Assembly (NCBI RefSeq): GCF_002563675.1
Contig: NZ_PDJC01000001.1
Location: 2,914,001-2,978,000, forward strand
Direction: 5' to 3'
Source of the DNA: Propionicimonas paludicola
GTDB taxonomy: Bacteria; Actinomycetota; Actinomycetes; Propionibacteriales; Propionibacteriaceae
DNA: 64,000 bases
Part shown: positions 21,913 to 27,935 of the stretch, one piece after another
Layout of the letters: each line of letters starts with the position of its first letter
Position numbering within the stretch: the stretch's first letter is position 1
Made by a program: the position numbers and the translations under genes
Notes under the pieces: generated by a model
Told to the model about the DNA's origin: nothing
The model's database searches: none
The model's input: only the letters and a program-made list of their open reading frames with translations

Positions 21913-23823
21913 ATGACCACCGAAATCCGCCAGGCACCGATGCCGTCGACGGAACTGGCTGAGGCGAGCACACCGCTGCTCGTCGACGCCACTGGTTTTC
22001 AGAATGCCACCGATCTGCTGCTGAACCGGCTGGCGGAGGCGCCCGATCACGTCGCCTTCGACGTCCGGGACGCCGGCGCACCGGTCAGCGGGCCGTGGCG
22101 TCCGGTCTCCACCAGGGAGTTCGCCGCACAGGTCCGTCGGCTGGCCCGTGGCCTGATCGCGGCCGGGATCGAGACCGGGGACTCGGTCGGGATCATGGCC
22201 GCCACCCGTTACGAGTGGGCCGTGGCCGAGATGGCCTGCTGGTTCGCCGGCGCCGTGGTGGTGCCGATCTACGACACGTCCGCTGCCGTCCAGGTGCGGA
22301 CGATCGTCGCCGACGCCGCGGTCCGACTCGGCGTGGCCGGCTCGTCCGAGCAAGCCGACTTGCTGCGGGAAGCGCTGGCCGAGCAGGCCGTCGGCCCGCT
22401 GGGCGTGTGGACCATGGACCCTGCCCCCGGCCACGATCTGGACGCGCTGGCCGAGCTGGGCGAGGCGGTCTCCGATGAGCTGCTCGAGCAGCGCCGAACC
22501 GCGGCCGACCTGGACGCGGTGGCCACCATCGTCTACACCTCCGGCACCACGGCCGAGCCGCGCGGCGCCCTGATCACCCACCGCAACTTCGTCCTGCAGG
22601 TCCGCAACATCGCCGCGGCCTACACCGAGGTGGTGAAGGCGGACGGGAACACGATCATCTTCTTGCCGCTGGCCCATGTGCTGGCCCGCGGACTGCAGCT
22701 GGTCTGCCTGGCCTCGGGGATGCGGATCGCGCACTTGGCCGAACCGAAGGAGGTGGTGCCGGCGCTGGCCGTGCTGCGTCCGACCTTCTTGGTGGTGGTG
22801 CCGCGGGTGCTGCAGAAGGTGCAGGCCGCCGCCGCGGCCGCCGCGGCCAGCAAGCATCTGGGTCTGGTCTGGACGGCCGCGCAGAACACCGCCATCGCCT
22901 GGGGACGGTTCCTCGAGGAGCGCCAGGTCGTCCCGGACGCCCGACCGTCGCCCTGGCTGACGGCGCGGCGCCGGGTCTTCGATCGGCTGTTCTACTCCCG
23001 GCTGCGCGGCCTGCTCGGCGGACGGATCGAGTACCTGCTGTCCGGGGCGGCGTCCCTGGACGCCGAACTGTGCCGCTTCTTCACCGGGATCGGGGTGCCG
23101 GTGGTCGAGGGCTACGGCCTGACCGAGACCACCGCCCCGCTCACCGGGAACCTGCCCGGCTCGATCCGAGCCGGCAGCGTCGGGGTACCGATGCCGGGCA
23201 CCACCGTCCGCATCTCCCCCAATGGCGAGGTCTTGGCCCGCGGCGTCGGGGTCTTCGCCGGCTACCGCAACCGCGAGGCGAACACGGACGCCTTCGTCGA
23301 CGGCTTCTTCCGCACCGGCGATCTGGGCGAGTTGGACGCCGCCGGCCGGCTGACCCTGCGCGGGCGCAGCAAGGATGTGATCGTCACCTCCGGTGGCAAG
23401 ACCGTTTCCCCGGCGGCCTGGGAGGGTTCGGTCGAGCAGAACCCGCTGGTGGCCCACGCCGTCCTGGTCGGTGAGGGAAAGCCCTACCTGGGTGGCCTGA
23501 TCCTGCTGGATCCGGAGTCGGTGAATGCCTGGGCGCAGCGCGAAGGTCTCGCCGGAGCCGTGAAGCTCAGCGCTCCGGTGGACGGCGGCCTGGTCCAGGT
23601 CGACGACTCGCGGCTGGTCGCGGCGATCAGTCGGGCCGTGCAGGCCGCGAACGCACAGCTGGCCCGCTCCGAGCAGGTGCGGCGGTTCTCGCTGCTGATC
23701 GCCGACCTCACCGAGAAGGGCGGCATGGTCACGCCTACCCTGAAGTTGAAGCGGGCCGCATTGCTGGCCCGGGTCCACGACATTGTCGAGAACCTCTATC
23801 GAGATCCTAGGAGTCGCAGATGA
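21913..23823 (+). CDS. long-chain fatty-acid--CoA ligase (AMP-forming)
   Basis: A 636-aa acyl-adenylate-forming enzyme that activates fatty acids to acyl-CoA. The P-loop is IVYTSGTTAEPRGALITHRN (about residues 205-224), the A5 motif VVEGYGLTETTAPLTG (about 398), and the A7/A8 region FFRTGDLGELDAAGRLTLRGRSKD (about 470-493). The catalytic Lys lies in the C-terminal MVTPTLKLKRAALL. The start at 21913 follows GGGGAGG; an in-frame ATG at 21889 lies before that site. Its stop overlaps the start of the DUF2177 gene (ATGA). Confidence 0.9.
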   Translation: MTTEIRQAPMPSTELAEASTPLLVDATGFQNATDLLLNRLAEAPDHVAFDVRDAGAPVSGPWRPVSTREFAAQVRRLARGLIAAGIETGDSVGIMAATRYEWAVAEMACWFAGAVVVPIYDTSAAVQVRTIVADAAVRLGVAGSSEQADLLREALAEQAVGPLGVWTMDPAPGHDLDALAELGEAVSDELLEQRRTAADLDAVATIVYTSGTTAEPRGALITHRNFVLQVRNIAAAYTEVVKADGNTIIFLPLAHVLARGLQLVCLASGMRIAHLAEPKEVVPALAVLRPTFLVVVPRVLQKVQAAAAAAAASKHLGLVWTAAQNTAIAWGRFLEERQVVPDARPSPWLTARRRVFDRLFYSRLRGLLGGRIEYLLSGAASLDAELCRFFTGIGVPVVEGYGLTETTAPLTGNLPGSIRAGSVGVPMPGTTVRISPNGEVLARGVGVFAGYRNREANTDAFVDGFFRTGDLGELDAAGRLTLRGRSKDVIVTSGGKTVSPAAWEGSVEQNPLVAHAVLVGEGKPYLGGLILLDPESVNAWAQREGLAGAVKLSAPVDGGLVQVDDSRLVAAISRAVQAANAQLARSEQVRRFSLLIADLTEKGGMVTPTLKLKRAALLARVHDIVENLYRDPRSRR

Positions 23824-24251
23824 GCAGGTTCCGTCGTTGGTTGATCAGCTACGTGGTCGCGTTGGTGGTGTTCACCCTGGTGGACGGGGTGTGGATCGGC
23901 CTGGTGGCGTCCGGGGTGTATCGGGCTGAGCTCGGCTCGCTGCTGGCCGCCTCGTTCCAGCCGGTCGCGGCCATCGTGTTCTACCTGGGCTACGTGGCCG
24001 GACTGGTGCATTTCGGAGTGCAGCCGTTGGCCGGGGACGTCCCGCTGGGCCGGCGGGTGCTGGCCGGGGCACTGTTCGGCCTGTTCACCTACGGCACCTG
24101 GGGGCTGACCGCCCTGACCGTGCTGAACGGCTTCTCGGCATTCGTCGCCGTCACCGACATCGCCTGGGGGACGGCGCTGGGCGCCCTGGTCACTTGGCTG
24201 TCCACACTCCTCTTGCGGCGCTTCGGGGTACTCCGGGCCAACCCGGTCTGA
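23820..24251 (+). CDS. DUF2177 family membrane protein
   Basis: A 143-aa integral membrane protein with four predicted helices (about residues 7-28, 42-65, 80-103, 108-132). The pattern FTLVDGVWIGLVASGVYRAEL and GLFTYGTWGLTALTVLNGFS matches the DUF2177 family, whose function is not known. Its ATG overlaps the ligase stop by 4 bp, so it is translationally coupled to the acyl-CoA ligase. Confidence 0.8.
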   Translation: MSRFRRWLISYVVALVVFTLVDGVWIGLVASGVYRAELGSLLAASFQPVAAIVFYLGYVAGLVHFGVQPLAGDVPLGRRVLAGALFGLFTYGTWGLTALTVLNGFSAFVAVTDIAWGTALGALVTWLSTLLLRRFGVLRANPV

Positions 24252-24297
24252 GCCGAACCGTCATCACCGGACGACGCGCTCCGTCCGGACAGCACGA

Positions 24298-24327
24298 AGC
24301 CGCCCCCGGGGCACCCGGGAGCGGCTC
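24298..24327. terminator. bidirectional terminator hairpin
   Basis: AGCCGC-CCCCGGG-GCA-CCCGGG-AGCGGCT forms a long GC-rich stem between the convergent DUF2177 and fasciclin genes. It can serve both strands. No long U-run follows. Confidence 0.7.
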
Positions 24328-24341
24328 GGCTGGGGGACGGG

Positions 24342-24932
24342 CTAGCTCTTCGGCAGCAGGACGCCGTCGATCACGTGGATCACGCCGTTGCTGGCGGTGA
24401 TGTCGGTCTTGATCACGTTCACGGTGTTTCCGGCGCCGTCGGTGAGGCTGACCTTGCCGTCCTTCACCTTCACGGTGAAGGTGCCACCCTGGACGGTCTT
24501 GACCTTCTCGCCGTTCATTCCGGCGACCTGGCTGGCCATGACCTCTCCGGAGACCACGTGGTAGGTCAGCACGCTGGTCAGCGCCTTCTTGTCCTTCAGT
24601 AGACCGTCCAGGGTGCCGGCCGGCAGCTTGGCGAAGGCCTCATCGGTGGGCGCGAAGACCGTGAACGGGCCGGGGCCCTTCAGGGTCTCGACCAAGCCGG
24701 CTGCGGTCAACGCCGTGGCCAGAGTCTTGAAGTCGCCGGCCGCGACGGCGGTGTCGACGATGTCGGACATCATCGGTTCGCTCATTGACGGGCTGGGGGA
24801 GGCGGGGGCGGAGGTCGCCGGTGCCGAGCTGGCCGGGGCCGAACTGGGCGGGGCGGCCGGGGCAGCAGCGGTACAGCCGGTGGCGATCAGGCCCAGGCTG
24901 AGGATGGCGGCCGCAATAGCGAAGCGCTTCAT
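24342..24932 (-). CDS. fasciclin-domain lipoprotein (MPT83-like)
   Basis: A 196-aa lipoprotein: signal [20 protein letters not shown] with a lipobox Cys at about residue 20, an Ala/Pro/Ser linker, then one fasciclin (FAS1) domain from about residue 58. FAS1 hallmarks are [38 protein letters not shown] and [15 protein letters not shown]. Such proteins are surface adhesion or carbohydrate-binding factors; mycobacterial MPT70/MPT83 are SigK targets. The true start is ATG 24932 (AAAGGA upstream); the longer frame crosses the promoter. An ECF-type promoter GCATCC...CGAAG precedes it and matches the one before the divergent fasciclin gene. Confidence 0.9.
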
Positions 24933-24965
24933 GAACGGTCCTTTCGGTCGAGTGATGTACCTGTG

Positions 24966-24992
24966 CTTCGTCCCCAGCCCTGTGGCTGGATG
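24966..24992 (-). promoter_or_regulatory. SigK-type promoter of the fasciclin lipoprotein gene
   Basis: Read on the minus strand, CATCC (24992-24988) is followed after 17 nt by CGAAG (24970-24966), about 34 bp before the start codon. The same CATCC-N17-CGAAG occurs at 25042-25068 on the plus strand, each inside GCATCCAGCC. Mycobacterial SigK promoters are described as CCATCC ... CGAAT, so recognition by the neighbouring SigK-like factor is likely. Confidence 0.7.
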
Positions 24993-25041
24993 CACGACTA
25001 GGTAGTGCTGCGCAGATCGGGCGATCTGTGGACCTCGTCTG

Positions 25042-25068
25042 CATCCAGCCGCGGCCCTGCCTGCGAAG
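25042..25068 (+). promoter_or_regulatory. SigK-type promoter of the second fasciclin gene
   Basis: CATCC (25042-25046), 17-nt spacer, CGAAG (25064-25068), 48 bp before the start codon. Element sequences and spacing are identical to the divergent promoter at 24966-24992, while the spacers and the rest of the leaders differ, which argues for a functional promoter. Confidence 0.7.
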
Positions 25069-25116
25069 AGAGGACGAGCTGCACGCCGGTGCAGCCACAG
25101 CTGAAGGGAGCATTCG

Positions 25117-25770
25117 ATGACGCTTCGACGCACTTTGGCCCGGCTCGGTGTGATTGCCGTGGCCGGTTTGGTCTCCGCAGGCCTGGTGGCAGTGCCCGCC
25201 CAGGCGTCCACCTCGCCTGCGGGTGAGCGCAGCCTGGCCGCGCTGCTCACCTCCGACGGCAACACCTTCGACCACAACTGGTACGACTACGACATCGTCA
25301 CCGAGGCGGTGCTGGCTGTCCTGGCTGCCAAGCCGAGCAGCCCGGTCGGCGTCCTGGCCGACGGCTCAGTGCCGCTGACCGCCTTCATTCCCAACGACCG
25401 CGCCTTCCAGGTGCTGGTGCGCGACCTGACCGGACGGTGGCCCAGCACAGAAAAGAAGACGTTCGAGGCGCTGGTCGGTGCCGTCGGGGTGGACGCCGTC
25501 GAGGCCGTCCTGCTCTACCACGTGGTGCCAGGAGCGACGATCCGCTCCAAGGACGCACTGAAGGCGGACGGCGCGAAGCTCGCCACCGCGCTGCCGGGTG
25601 CCGCGATCACGGTGGACGTGAAGAGCAAGTGGCTGCGTCTGATCGAGCTGAAGGATCTGGACCGCAACGACGCCAACCCGTGGATCAACCCGCGAGCCTT
25701 CGATCTGAACAAGGGCAACAAGCAGATCGCTCACGGGATCACCCTGGTCCTTCGGCCGCTGAACCTCTGA
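25117..25770 (+). CDS. secreted fasciclin-domain protein
   Basis: A 217-aa exported protein: signal peptide about residues 1-31 (ending PAQASTSP) with no lipobox, so it is probably secreted. One FAS1 domain spans about 35-217, with [43 protein letters not shown] and [14 protein letters not shown]. It has an insertion ([20 protein letters not shown]) before the last strand that ordinary FAS1 domains lack. It is divergent from the fasciclin lipoprotein gene, shares its promoter type, and lies 68 bp upstream of the sigma factor gene. Confidence 0.88.
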
Positions 25771-25838
25771 CCCGCGTGGGCACCGGCCCCTTCCCGGCAA
25801 CCCTCGGCGGAGGGGCCGGGCCCACCTATGCTGAAGAC

Positions 25839-26402
25839 GTGCCGAGCGACAGCGCCCTCCCGTCGGCGGAGCTGGCTGTCCGCTTGCGGAACGGCGATCA
25901 GCAGGCGCTGGCCGAAGCATTCGCCCAGCACTCCCGCCTGGTCCATACGGTTGCACTGCGGACCCTGGGAAATCACCACGATGCCGAGGACGTCACCCAG
26001 CAAGTCTTCGTGGCCGCCTGGCGTGGCCGTCACGGTCTGGATCCGGCGCGGGGCAGTCTGGCCGGCTGGCTGGTGGGGATCACCAAGCATGTGATCGCCG
26101 ATGTGATGGCGCAGCGGGCCAGGAGCGTCCGCAACCTGCACGCGGTGGCTGCCGAGGCCGGGCCGACGGCGACTCCGGGTCTGGACGGAACTGTCGTCGA
26201 CAAGGTCGTGGTGGCTGCGGCGCTGGCCAACCTCGGCGAGCCACGGGCCACGATCCTGCGGCTGTCGTTCGGCGAGGAGCACACTCATGAGGAGATCGCC
26301 CAGCGCCTCGATCTTCCGCTGGGTACGGTGAAGAGCCACATTCGGCGCGGACTGCTGCAGTTACGAGAGGACATCCGGGAGGTGAGGGCCGATGCATCCT
26401 GA
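25839..26402 (+). CDS. sigK: ECF sigma factor, SigK-like
   Basis: A 187-aa sigma-70 family ECF factor. Region 2 is at about residues 15-85 (HSRLVHTVALRTLGNHHDAEDVTQQVFVAAW) and region 4 at about 130-180 (LRLSFGEEHTHEEIAQRLDLPLGTVKSHIRRGL). It overlaps the anti-sigma gene by 11 bp. The start is GTG 25839, only 6 nt after a -10-like TATGCT (25827-25832) and with no ribosome site, so the transcript is probably leaderless. The SigK assignment rests on the RskA-like partner and the adjacent fasciclin genes, as in mycobacteria. Confidence 0.85.
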   Translation: MPSDSALPSAELAVRLRNGDQQALAEAFAQHSRLVHTVALRTLGNHHDAEDVTQQVFVAAWRGRHGLDPARGSLAGWLVGITKHVIADVMAQRARSVRNLHAVAAEAGPTATPGLDGTVVDKVVVAAALANLGEPRATILRLSFGEEHTHEEIAQRLDLPLGTVKSHIRRGLLQLREDIREVRADAS

Positions 26403-27102
26403 GGACGAAATCCTGGCCCAGCTCGCTCTCGGCGAGTCCGTGGATCCGTCGGCCGCCGCCCATGTGGCCGGCTGTGAGTCCTGCCAGGCAGTGGTCGGCG
26501 AGCTGCGCGAGACCATGTCGCTGGTCGGTGAGGCCGCCGACGAGGAGTTGGTGGCTCCGCCCGCCTCGGTGTGGGAGTCCATTCGTGCCGAGGTGGCGGA
26601 CGAGGCCGCACCGGCGCCCACAGCCCCCGCTGCTCCGAGCGTCCCGGACGAACTGGCCCGGCGGCGACGTCCGGCTTTCGGCTGGATCGCCGCAGCCGCG
26701 GCGATCGGTGTGGTGGCCGGTGTAGTCGGAACTCAGGTCGTCGGGAATGCCCCGGGACTCCGACCCACGGTGCTGGCCCAGACGCAGCTGGACACCCTCG
26801 ACACCGGCACCCGCGGCGGCGAGGCCGAACTGCTCTCGTCCGCGGCCAGCGGTCTGGATCTACGGGTGCAGGTGAAGCCGCTGGATCCCGGCGACGGCTA
26901 CCTCGAGGTGTGGCTGATCAACACCGACCTGAAGCGGATGGTCTCGATCGGAGTGCTGCCGAAGGACGCCACCGTCCAGGACTTCCGGATCACCGGCAGC
27001 CTGATCGAGCAGGGTTACGTGATCGTCGACATCTCTCGCGAGCGGTTCGACGACCGTCCCCAGCACTCCGGCGACAGCCTGCTGCGGGGCAGCCTGAGCT
27101 GA
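26392..27102 (+). CDS. rskA: anti-sigma factor, RskA-like
   Basis: A 236-aa membrane anti-sigma factor. The cytoplasmic N-terminus has a zinc-associated anti-sigma motif HVAGCESCQ (HxxxCxxC, about residues 24-32). One transmembrane helix follows (FGWIAAAAAIGVVAGVVGT, about 97-116), then an extracytoplasmic RskA-type domain (about 130-236) with LDLRVQVKPLDPGDGYLEVWLI and MVSIGVL. It would hold the sigma factor at the membrane until intramembrane proteolysis releases it. It starts inside the sigma gene, giving coupled translation. Confidence 0.88.
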   Translation: MHPEDEILAQLALGESVDPSAAAHVAGCESCQAVVGELRETMSLVGEAADEELVAPPASVWESIRAEVADEAAPAPTAPAAPSVPDELARRRRPAFGWIAAAAAIGVVAGVVGTQVVGNAPGLRPTVLAQTQLDTLDTGTRGGEAELLSSAASGLDLRVQVKPLDPGDGYLEVWLINTDLKRMVSIGVLPKDATVQDFRITGSLIEQGYVIVDISRERFDDRPQHSGDSLLRGSLS

Positions 27103-27133
27103 ACGCCGGACGGTGCCGGGGCGATCATCCTGG

Positions 27134-27574
27134 TCAGCTGTTGGCCGGCTGCACCTGGATGGTGAAGCTCACTGACTTGCCGGCCGGATCGGTCAGGGTC
27201 GCCTTCGTGGTGCCCACCTTCTTTGCGTCGAAGCCCGGGTTGAAACTGGCCCCGTCCCGGGTGCCACCGGGGGAGAACACCGCGACAGTGGCGTCCTCGG
27301 TACTGCCCGTCCACTTGCCCAGCTCGTCCCCGGTGGACTCACTCGTGATCACCACAGCACTGTCCTGACGGACGCTGATGGTCTGACCGGCCAGCTTGTC
27401 CGGCTCAACGAAGACCGGCGGACGCAGTTGGGAGTTACCGGCACTCGACGCCTCCGCGGACGGACTTGTGGCCGGAACCGTCGTCGACCTAGCCGGCGCA
27501 CCCGCGCTGGTGCAGGCGGTCATCATGATGGTTGCCGCGATCAGCGCCGCGACGCCGATGAACTTGCGAAACAT
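27134..27574 (-). CDS. lipoprotein of unknown function
   Basis: A 146-aa lipoprotein. The signal MFRKFIGVAALIAATIMMTACTS carries a lipobox ending in Cys at about residue 21, followed by a Ser/Ala/Thr linker to about 48. The remaining 95 residues look like one beta-sandwich domain (LAGQTISVRQDSAVVITSES, ...VGTTKATLTDPAGKSVSFTIQV), comparable to Ig-like or BIg-type folds. The start at 27574 has GAGAGG upstream. It converges on the anti-sigma gene with a 31-bp gap. I do not recognise a family. Confidence 0.75.
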   Translation of the reverse strand: MFRKFIGVAALIAATIMMTACTSAGAPARSTTVPATSPSAEASSAGNSQLRPPVFVEPDKLAGQTISVRQDSAVVITSESTGDELGKWTGSTEDATVAVFSPGGTRDGASFNPGFDAKKVGTTKATLTDPAGKSVSFTIQVQPANS

Positions 27575-27935
27575 ACCGGGCCTCTCTCCGGATGGACACT
27601 CAACACTCACACCCACGCACCGATCACGCGAAACGTTGCGTCCACTGGGGGATTTGGAACAAGGAGGCGTCACACCAAGCGCGGGGACAGCTATCACCAG
27701 CAAGACGGCTCAGACTCTCCACACCCCACCGATCTGAACTAGTGAGACACCACGGGTGGCAACAGCCGGACCGAGCTTCTCGAACCGGAGATCTTCCAGG
27801 TCGGCTGTCATCGTCACCATCAGCCGCATTGACTTGGGGAGCAGCAGTTCATGACTGGGATCTATCATGGGACCGCTAGGCGGAATGGTGGCGAGCGACC
27901 GATGCCATTGCTCCCAGGCCTTCGTTGCTTTTCCG
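27575..27935 (-). other. 361-bp gap; possible C-terminal remnant of the nuclease-like gene
   Basis: The part from 27575 to about 27700 looks non-coding. From 27710 an open frame runs leftward (27985 to 27710, 91 codons) and overlaps the end of the nuclease-like gene in another frame. Its last 50 codons look protein-like (LRLMVTMTADLEDLRFEKLG style). It may be a frameshifted continuation of that gene or a chance frame; the sequence alone does not decide. Confidence 0.3.

Follow-up and report, generated by a model that had tools for sequence, protein, structure and literature searches.

A predicted ECF sigma/anti-sigma module with two divergent fasciclin promoters in Propionicimonas paludicola

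The DNA analysed here, called the window, is a stretch of 64,000 nucleotides of Propionicimonas paludicola (GCF_002563675.1, contig NZ_PDJC01000001.1, positions 2,914,001 to 2,978,000 of the forward strand). It carries a compact cluster in which two fasciclin genes, fas1 and fas2, stand next to the genes of an extracytoplasmic function (ECF) sigma factor and an anti-sigma factor. The features of this cluster are listed below in window coordinates; L and G numbers denote individual loci and genomes.

24342..24932, minus strand: fas1, lipoprotein-like, one FAS1 domain (PF02469, 136.3 bits; lipobox-like LIATGC by eye)
24966..24993, minus strand: predicted sigma-dependent promoter of fas1, GCATCC-N17-CGAAG (like sites stand before fas1 of L034, L036 and L046)
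25041..25068, plus strand: predicted sigma-dependent promoter of fas2, GCATCC-N17-CGAAG (strict form at 56/86 fas2 loci)
25117..25770, plus strand: fas2, divergent FAS1 protein of 217 aa, probably secreted (PF02469, 30.0 bits; signal-peptide-like start by eye; alignments A1 and A4)
25776..25825, plus strand: strong hairpin without a T run, between fas2 and the sigma gene (z -3.1 to -3.9)
25827..25832, plus strand: TATGCT, predicted housekeeping -10 of a leaderless sigma-anti-sigma transcript (from TANNNT statistics across sigma loci)
25839..26402, plus strand: ECF sigma factor, 187 aa, zero cysteines (Sigma70_r2, 62.3 bits; Sigma70_r4, 52.2 bits)
26392..27102, plus strand: anti-sigma factor with N-terminal HxxxCxxC, one membrane span by eye and an RskA C-terminal domain (PF10099, 36.7 bits); overlaps the sigma gene

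The two fasciclin genes are transcribed in opposite directions, and fas2 is the divergent member of the pair. They were the only two PF02469 genes found in the 3.26 Mb genome, in which one PF10099 (RskA_C) gene was found (E 0.001 in both searches). PF02469 scores above the gathering score and the FAS1 fold predicted for fas2 (pLDDT 84) place both proteins in the FAS1/fasciclin family. The gap between fas2 and the sigma gene, which lie on one strand, is 68 nt. A first-pass annotation of the letters alone had placed the sigma/anti-sigma pair directly downstream of the fasciclin genes, and this gene order was borne out.

The same annotation had reported the motif CATCC-N17-CGAAG before both fasciclin genes. 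A pattern search of the window returned exactly these two matches, at 24966-24992 (minus strand) and 25042-25068 (plus strand), which end 33 nt (fas1) and 48 nt (fas2) upstream of the start codons. In window shuffles, 0.22 matches were expected, and at least two were reached in 2 of 100 shuffles. As a bare 10-base pattern, CATCC-N17-CGAAG is weak, with 6 matches genome-wide against 4 for the reversed pattern. The weight rests on its position before the fasciclin genes and on its conservation.

The search of the genome for further sites, which had been proposed at the outset, returned 4 CGAAG matches besides the two in the window, and GCATCC-N16..18-GGAAG gave 8 matches (reversed control, 2). 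The TG that precedes CATCC at the fasciclin genes was absent from all 12 of these, 8 of which lie in coding-like frames. No TGCATCC-N17-[CG]GAAG other than those of the two fasciclin genes was seen in the 3.26 Mb; weaker forms, for example of the Nocardioides type, were sought only by one loose pattern (TGCATCC-N15..19-GA), which was uninformative, with 69 matches against 43 for the reversed one. No motif was found before the DUF2177, acyl-CoA synthetase or DUF1295 genes of the window. As to the shared sequence originally described, GCATCCAGCC is indeed common to both window sites, whereas the core conserved in relatives is GGTGCATCC. A perfect palindrome, CAGATCGGGCGATCTG (CAGATC-GGGC-GATCTG), lies midway between the two -35 boxes (window 24994-25040); it was considered as a second operator and set aside, as it was not seen in the spacer of L034. 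An identical 26-base string starting with TGCATCC was found at G000:C1:4844-4869 and at 3244519-3244544, and this duplication may belong to a longer repeat near both contig ends.

Conservation of the motif was studied in relatives of fas2. Within the genus, 5 of 30 genomes carried such a relative, and within the family 11 of 198; the window genome is counted in each figure, and one of the 11 was marginal (G083, E 0.001). A species collection contributed 80 named loci, the best 80 of 258. The resulting 86 upstream regions were those of the window, L024, L030-L033 and L034-L113, after L023 and L025-L029 (repeats of named loci) and the marginal L022 had been dropped. In an unbiased count of all 5+5 pairs with gaps of 0-30, the top dyad was CATCC-17-GGAAG, present in 38 of the 86 regions. 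GCATCC was present in 75/86, and CATCC-N16..18-[CG]GAA, referred to as the strict motif, in 56/86, with a spacing of N17 in 56/56. Reversed sequence gave 0 strict matches and single-base shuffles a mean of 0.58; on the opposite strand there were two (2/86), the fas1 sites of the window and L034. The consensus derived from the 56 strict sites was GGTGCATCC-N17-[CG]GAAG, and their spacers had a mean identity of 38% and fell into 35 clusters. Records with strict sites included Intrasporangiaceae, Cellulomonadaceae, Promicromonosporaceae, Dermacoccaceae, Micromonosporaceae, Propionibacteriaceae and the Kineosporia type. It may be concluded that the predicted promoter is conserved and recurs before fas2 relatives other than by chance. 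The first-pass annotation had named lack of conservation of the motif in relatives as a ground for refutation, and on this count its proposal was not refuted.

The distribution of the anti-sigma factor was compared with that of the motif. Its profile was sought in 37 genomes at a threshold of E 1e-12; mostly the best 73 candidates per genome were scored, so absences are soft. The family was found in 34/37 genomes: in 28 of the 29 with a strict-motif fas2, in 3/3 with a degenerate or variant site and in 3/5 without GCATCC before the listed fas2. A sigma gene adjoined the anti-sigma gene in 30/30 fetched loci. In G016, which has three fas2 copies, the motif was present only at the copy adjoining sigma and anti-sigma genes (L026). 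In G007, the divergent fas1-fas2 pair is retained beside DUF2177 and acyl-CoA synthetase genes as in the window; no sigma or anti-sigma gene was found in the fetched 17 kb, and both fasciclin leaders are of the TTGACA...CACAAT (sigma-70) type by eye. Regulator and promoter appear to have changed jointly in G007, which makes it a natural experiment on rewiring. Judged by these co-occurrences, regulator and putative promoter go together across genomes. Sites, gene order and conservation all support the proposed self-contained cluster with a shared promoter and a sigma/anti-sigma partner.

Two further observations were made in G016 and related loci. At L025 (G016 contig 305, 4977-7981), one of the two fas2 copies of G016 without the motif, the fasciclin gene has as neighbours a SOUL haem-binding gene and a MerR gene that encodes B12-binding domains. 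The leaders of L025, L024, L027 and L028 contain TTGACA/CACAAT and ACAAACNTTC-like elements.

The region between fas2 and the sigma gene was analysed across relatives. At the 20 loci where fas2 directly precedes the sigma gene, a hairpin was found in the gap with z <= -2.0 at 15 (60 shuffles each), and the window hairpin is a probable terminator or attenuator. TATGCT stands directly after it, forming TATGCT-N6-GTG at the sigma start. The sequence TANNNT precedes the in-frame sigma start at 25/41 loci (at 6-7 nt in 23 and at 9 nt in 2), with 0/41 in either other frame and 1 in reversed sequence. In M. tuberculosis, TANNNT is the -10 element of 73% of primary starts, and many genes are leaderless, according to PMC3898074. 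The fasciclin motif was not found directly before the window sigma gene or before the sigma genes of the other scanned loci, which agrees with the early view that the sigma gene is not autoregulated from its own start. Hairpin and TANNNT together suggest a leaderless regulator transcript that would be independent of the sigma factor it encodes; this would be a simple way for a regulator to stay independent of its host operon.

What the sequence itself shows is the gene content and the motif with its position and conservation, and the cluster is very probably a signal-controlled switch in which the adjacent pair of membrane-anchored anti-sigma factor and ECF sigma factor drives two divergent fasciclin promoters. 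The anti-sigma factor, with its N-terminal HxxxCxxC part, single span and outer RskA_C domain, would hold the sigma factor and, on a signal, release it. The freed sigma factor would read the two divergent TGCATCC-N17-CGAAG promoters, bring RNA polymerase to them and start transcription, so that two FAS1 proteins, one lipid-anchored and one secreted, would be made, presumably for the cell envelope. The strong hairpin would largely terminate the fas2 transcript. The sigma and anti-sigma genes would be transcribed from their own housekeeping TANNNT promoter, starting at the GTG start codon, which would keep the supply of the regulator constant; any positive feedback would be limited to a little transcription running on from fas2. 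With its closely specified promoter, GGTGCATCC-N17-[CG]GAAG, and what looks like a regulon of two genes outside mycobacteria, the cluster would offer a setting in which to probe what signal SigK/RskA-type systems respond to and what bacterial fasciclin proteins do.

Several observations weigh against this switch. The strict motif was absent at 30 of the 86 fas2 loci: 12 of them, all Nocardioides records, have GCATCC-N17-[CG]GAGA[AT], 10 are without GCATCC and 8 are otherwise degenerate. Motif-bearing Cellulosimicrobium arenosum (L089), the exception among the 29 genomes, gave no anti-sigma match with 73/128 candidates scored. An anti-sigma gene was present in G020, a genome of the same genus as the window, and in the genomes of L068 and L092, where fas2 was found without GCATCC. 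No anti-sigma match was obtained in G007 (73/101 candidates scored) or in the genome of L062, where the motif is absent (73/135 scored), both being limited absences. Conservation is also not proof of which ECF factor of a cell would read the motif. The hairpin was not significant at 5/20 loci (z +0.1 at L037), and in the region 23700-27700 a terminator scan returned 0 hairpins with a T run and a simple sigma-70 scan 0 sites with a -35 box. Among 30 loci refetched via the anti-sigma gene, three of them repeats of known loci, TANNNT was found in 8, namely in 5/5 fas2-linked and 3/25 unlinked sigma genes; therefore, it characterises the fas2-linked clade.

An unlikely but not negligible alternative is that the cluster forms one fully autoregulated operon, in which all three genes from fas2 to the anti-sigma gene would be transcribed from the fas2 promoter and the hairpin would be only a processing or stability element. 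The 68-nt gap on one strand and the lack of a T run in the hairpin favour such an operon, as does M. tuberculosis sigK, reported in PMC7509140 to be autoregulated via Rv0449cp. According to that paper, the promoter immediately upstream of sigK is not under SigK control, and a single operon is at odds with TANNNT at leaderless distance at 25/41 sigma loci and in no other frame, and with a stable hairpin in the same position at 15/20 loci.

The nearest known proteins were considered with the role of the module. By profile and predicted fold, the best match of fas2 in the Protein Data Bank (PDB) was AstaP, the algal astaxanthin-binding fasciclins, with 27-28% identity across the aligned part. On these sequence and fold matches, fas2 is at most a candidate carotenoid binder. 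It is quite unlikely that the module belongs to a light or photo-oxidative stress response in which carotenoid binding or protection from singlet oxygen would be the task of the FAS1 proteins. A broader form of this proposal is likewise quite unlikely: a widespread actinobacterial ECF/HxxxCxxC-RskA module, with a distinct secreted FAS1 family as core output and a regulator insulated by hairpin and leaderless promoter, would serve photo-oxidative stress, and on loss of the regulator the same fasciclin genes would have come under sigma-70 promoters, in one genome next to a MerR regulator of the B12-binding, light-sensor type. Among solved structures, the sigma profile matched Rhodobacter RpoE best (2q1z, 101.5 bits), followed by SigK (91.6), and ChrR was, with RsiW, a weak PDB match of the anti-sigma profile. 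The C-terminal domain here is RskA_C, whereas that of ChrR is a soluble cupin.

It is very unlikely that one or more other ECF factors read the fasciclin promoters and that the neighbouring pair is only one input. Cross-recognition is common among ECF factors, and L089 represents a motif-bearing genome without a detected anti-sigma relative; against this stand the co-occurrence of motif and anti-sigma factor in 28/29 genomes and the fact that G007 and L062, both without a detected member of the anti-sigma family, also lack the motif. Chance, or inherited similarity of two duplicated fasciclin leaders, is an extremely improbable source of the motif: its bare form is hardly commoner in the genome than the reverse (6 vs 4), but the two leaders are otherwise unlike, as already stated in the first-pass annotation, the spacers of the 56 strict sites are diverse (38% identity, 35 clusters), and the unbiased top dyad (38/86), the strict motif (56/86) and an extended pattern (85 matches vs 3 reversed) rule out a chance motif.

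The pair was originally called SigK-like, and as a claim of orthology with mycobacterial SigK this was not supported. The sigma factor scored 89.7 bits against the curated NCBIfam SigK model PRK09646, whose cut-off is 226, and 123.7 bits against PRK12519 (cut-off 222). Cysteines were lacking in 34/41 sigma factors, including that of the window, and none had two. According to PMC7509140, mycobacterial SigK is classed as ECF18, a group in which 94% of members conserve two cysteines (133 and 183), against 56% in ECF19; the lack of cysteines here is compatible with ECF19. The anti-sigma factor matched RskA_C above the cut-off of 29.4 bits, and 10/14 family members matched at E 0.01. Its H24, C28 and C31 were invariant in 14/14, which places it among the predicted zinc-type (HxxxCxxC) anti-sigma factors. 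The sigma chain of the SigK complex 4nqw was matched by the sigma profile; no RskA chain among solved structures was matched by the anti-sigma profile. Because of the lacking cysteines, the score far under the SigK cut-off and the HxxxCxxC anti-sigma factor, orthology of the sigma factor with mycobacterial SigK is not supported; the pair would work like SigK-RskA, but identity with the mycobacterial system is unsupported. The promoters differ as well, TGCATCC...[CG]GAAG here versus the CCATCC...CGAAT reported for mycobacterial SigK. MPT83 and MPT70, the mycobacterial lipoprotein and secreted fasciclin, are a parallel for which common descent is unsupported: the pair here is highly diverged and divergently transcribed, and AstaP and several animal FAS1 domains are better matches for fas2 than MPT70 is.

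The joining of regulator and targets in one cluster had been presented as a distinguishing feature. The cluster is present, but a minimal mpt83-sigK-rskA cassette that includes a SigK site, and that occurs in Yersinia as well, had been described earlier (PMC7509140). Here, as in that cassette, fasciclin, ECF sigma and RskA genes are adjacent and a sigma site precedes the fasciclin gene. The differences are two divergent fasciclins with a site each, a sigma factor without the two cysteines, an HxxxCxxC anti-sigma factor, and the hairpin with a leaderless-type sigma promoter. A literature search, largely without subscription papers, found no account of the module in non-mycobacterial actinobacteria. 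The module is real but largely familiar, and the arrangement of hairpin and TANNNT is the new detail.

The arrangement had also been suggested to be ancestral. In an unrooted sigma tree of 68 rows, built without mycobacterial SigK, fas2 lies directly before the sigma gene in 22 rows; this layout required 5 changes against 18.8 in shuffles, and a supported 34-row branch held 22 direct, 11 spaced and 1 unlinked row. The fas2-sigma-anti-sigma linkage, present also in Micropruina glycogenica (L035) and common in the nearest clade, may thus be old there, in partial agreement with the suggestion. A divergent fasciclin pair in which each gene has its own site was found at 2/86 loci (the window and L034), and this form looks derived rather than ancestral.

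Other targets were sought with the extended pattern in the 86 loci (1.30 Mb). By scripted gene assignment, 66 of the 85 matches belonged to fas2, 4 to fas1 (window, L034, L036 and L046) and 9 to genes of DUF4397-type secreted proteins (Pfam-checked in L096 only); 2 lay inside sigma genes, and 4 were others, including L090, a mis-assigned fas2 site. At all 15 loci where the sigma gene follows fas2 by 1.5-1.9 kb, a DUF4397-type gene stands between them, 12 without a site of their own and 3 with one. Between fas2 and the sigma gene of L047, a DUF4397 protein with a C-terminal anchor is followed by a sortase (Pfam), and in L052 an apparent sortase-like frame follows DUF4397; no sortase was found after DUF4397 among the four longest frames of each of L040, L041 and L059. 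Because of these DUF4397-type sites and genes and the sortase within relatives' modules, the module appears to serve other envelope proteins in some relatives. Among other fas1-like lipoproteins, represented by 21 loci from 20 of 28 genomes, the motif was present at 3/21: one of these, L152, is the gene already counted as L036, and the others are two distant sites of the CGAAT form. With only these 3/21 matched, fas1 was rejected as a core target outside a few genera.

The genes flanking the cluster were also inspected. A neighbouring DUF2177 membrane protein (23820..24251, plus strand; PF09945, 118.9 bits), syntenic in L034 and L051 and without the motif, was not counted among the predicted regulon. 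At 27134-27574, a small lipoprotein-like gene with no Pfam match is convergent with the anti-sigma gene. Finally, in the record of Sphaerisporangium cinnabarinum ATCC 31213 (L083/L084), the sigma gene is near-identical to that of Cellulosimicrobium funkei, and the record may be mislabelled.

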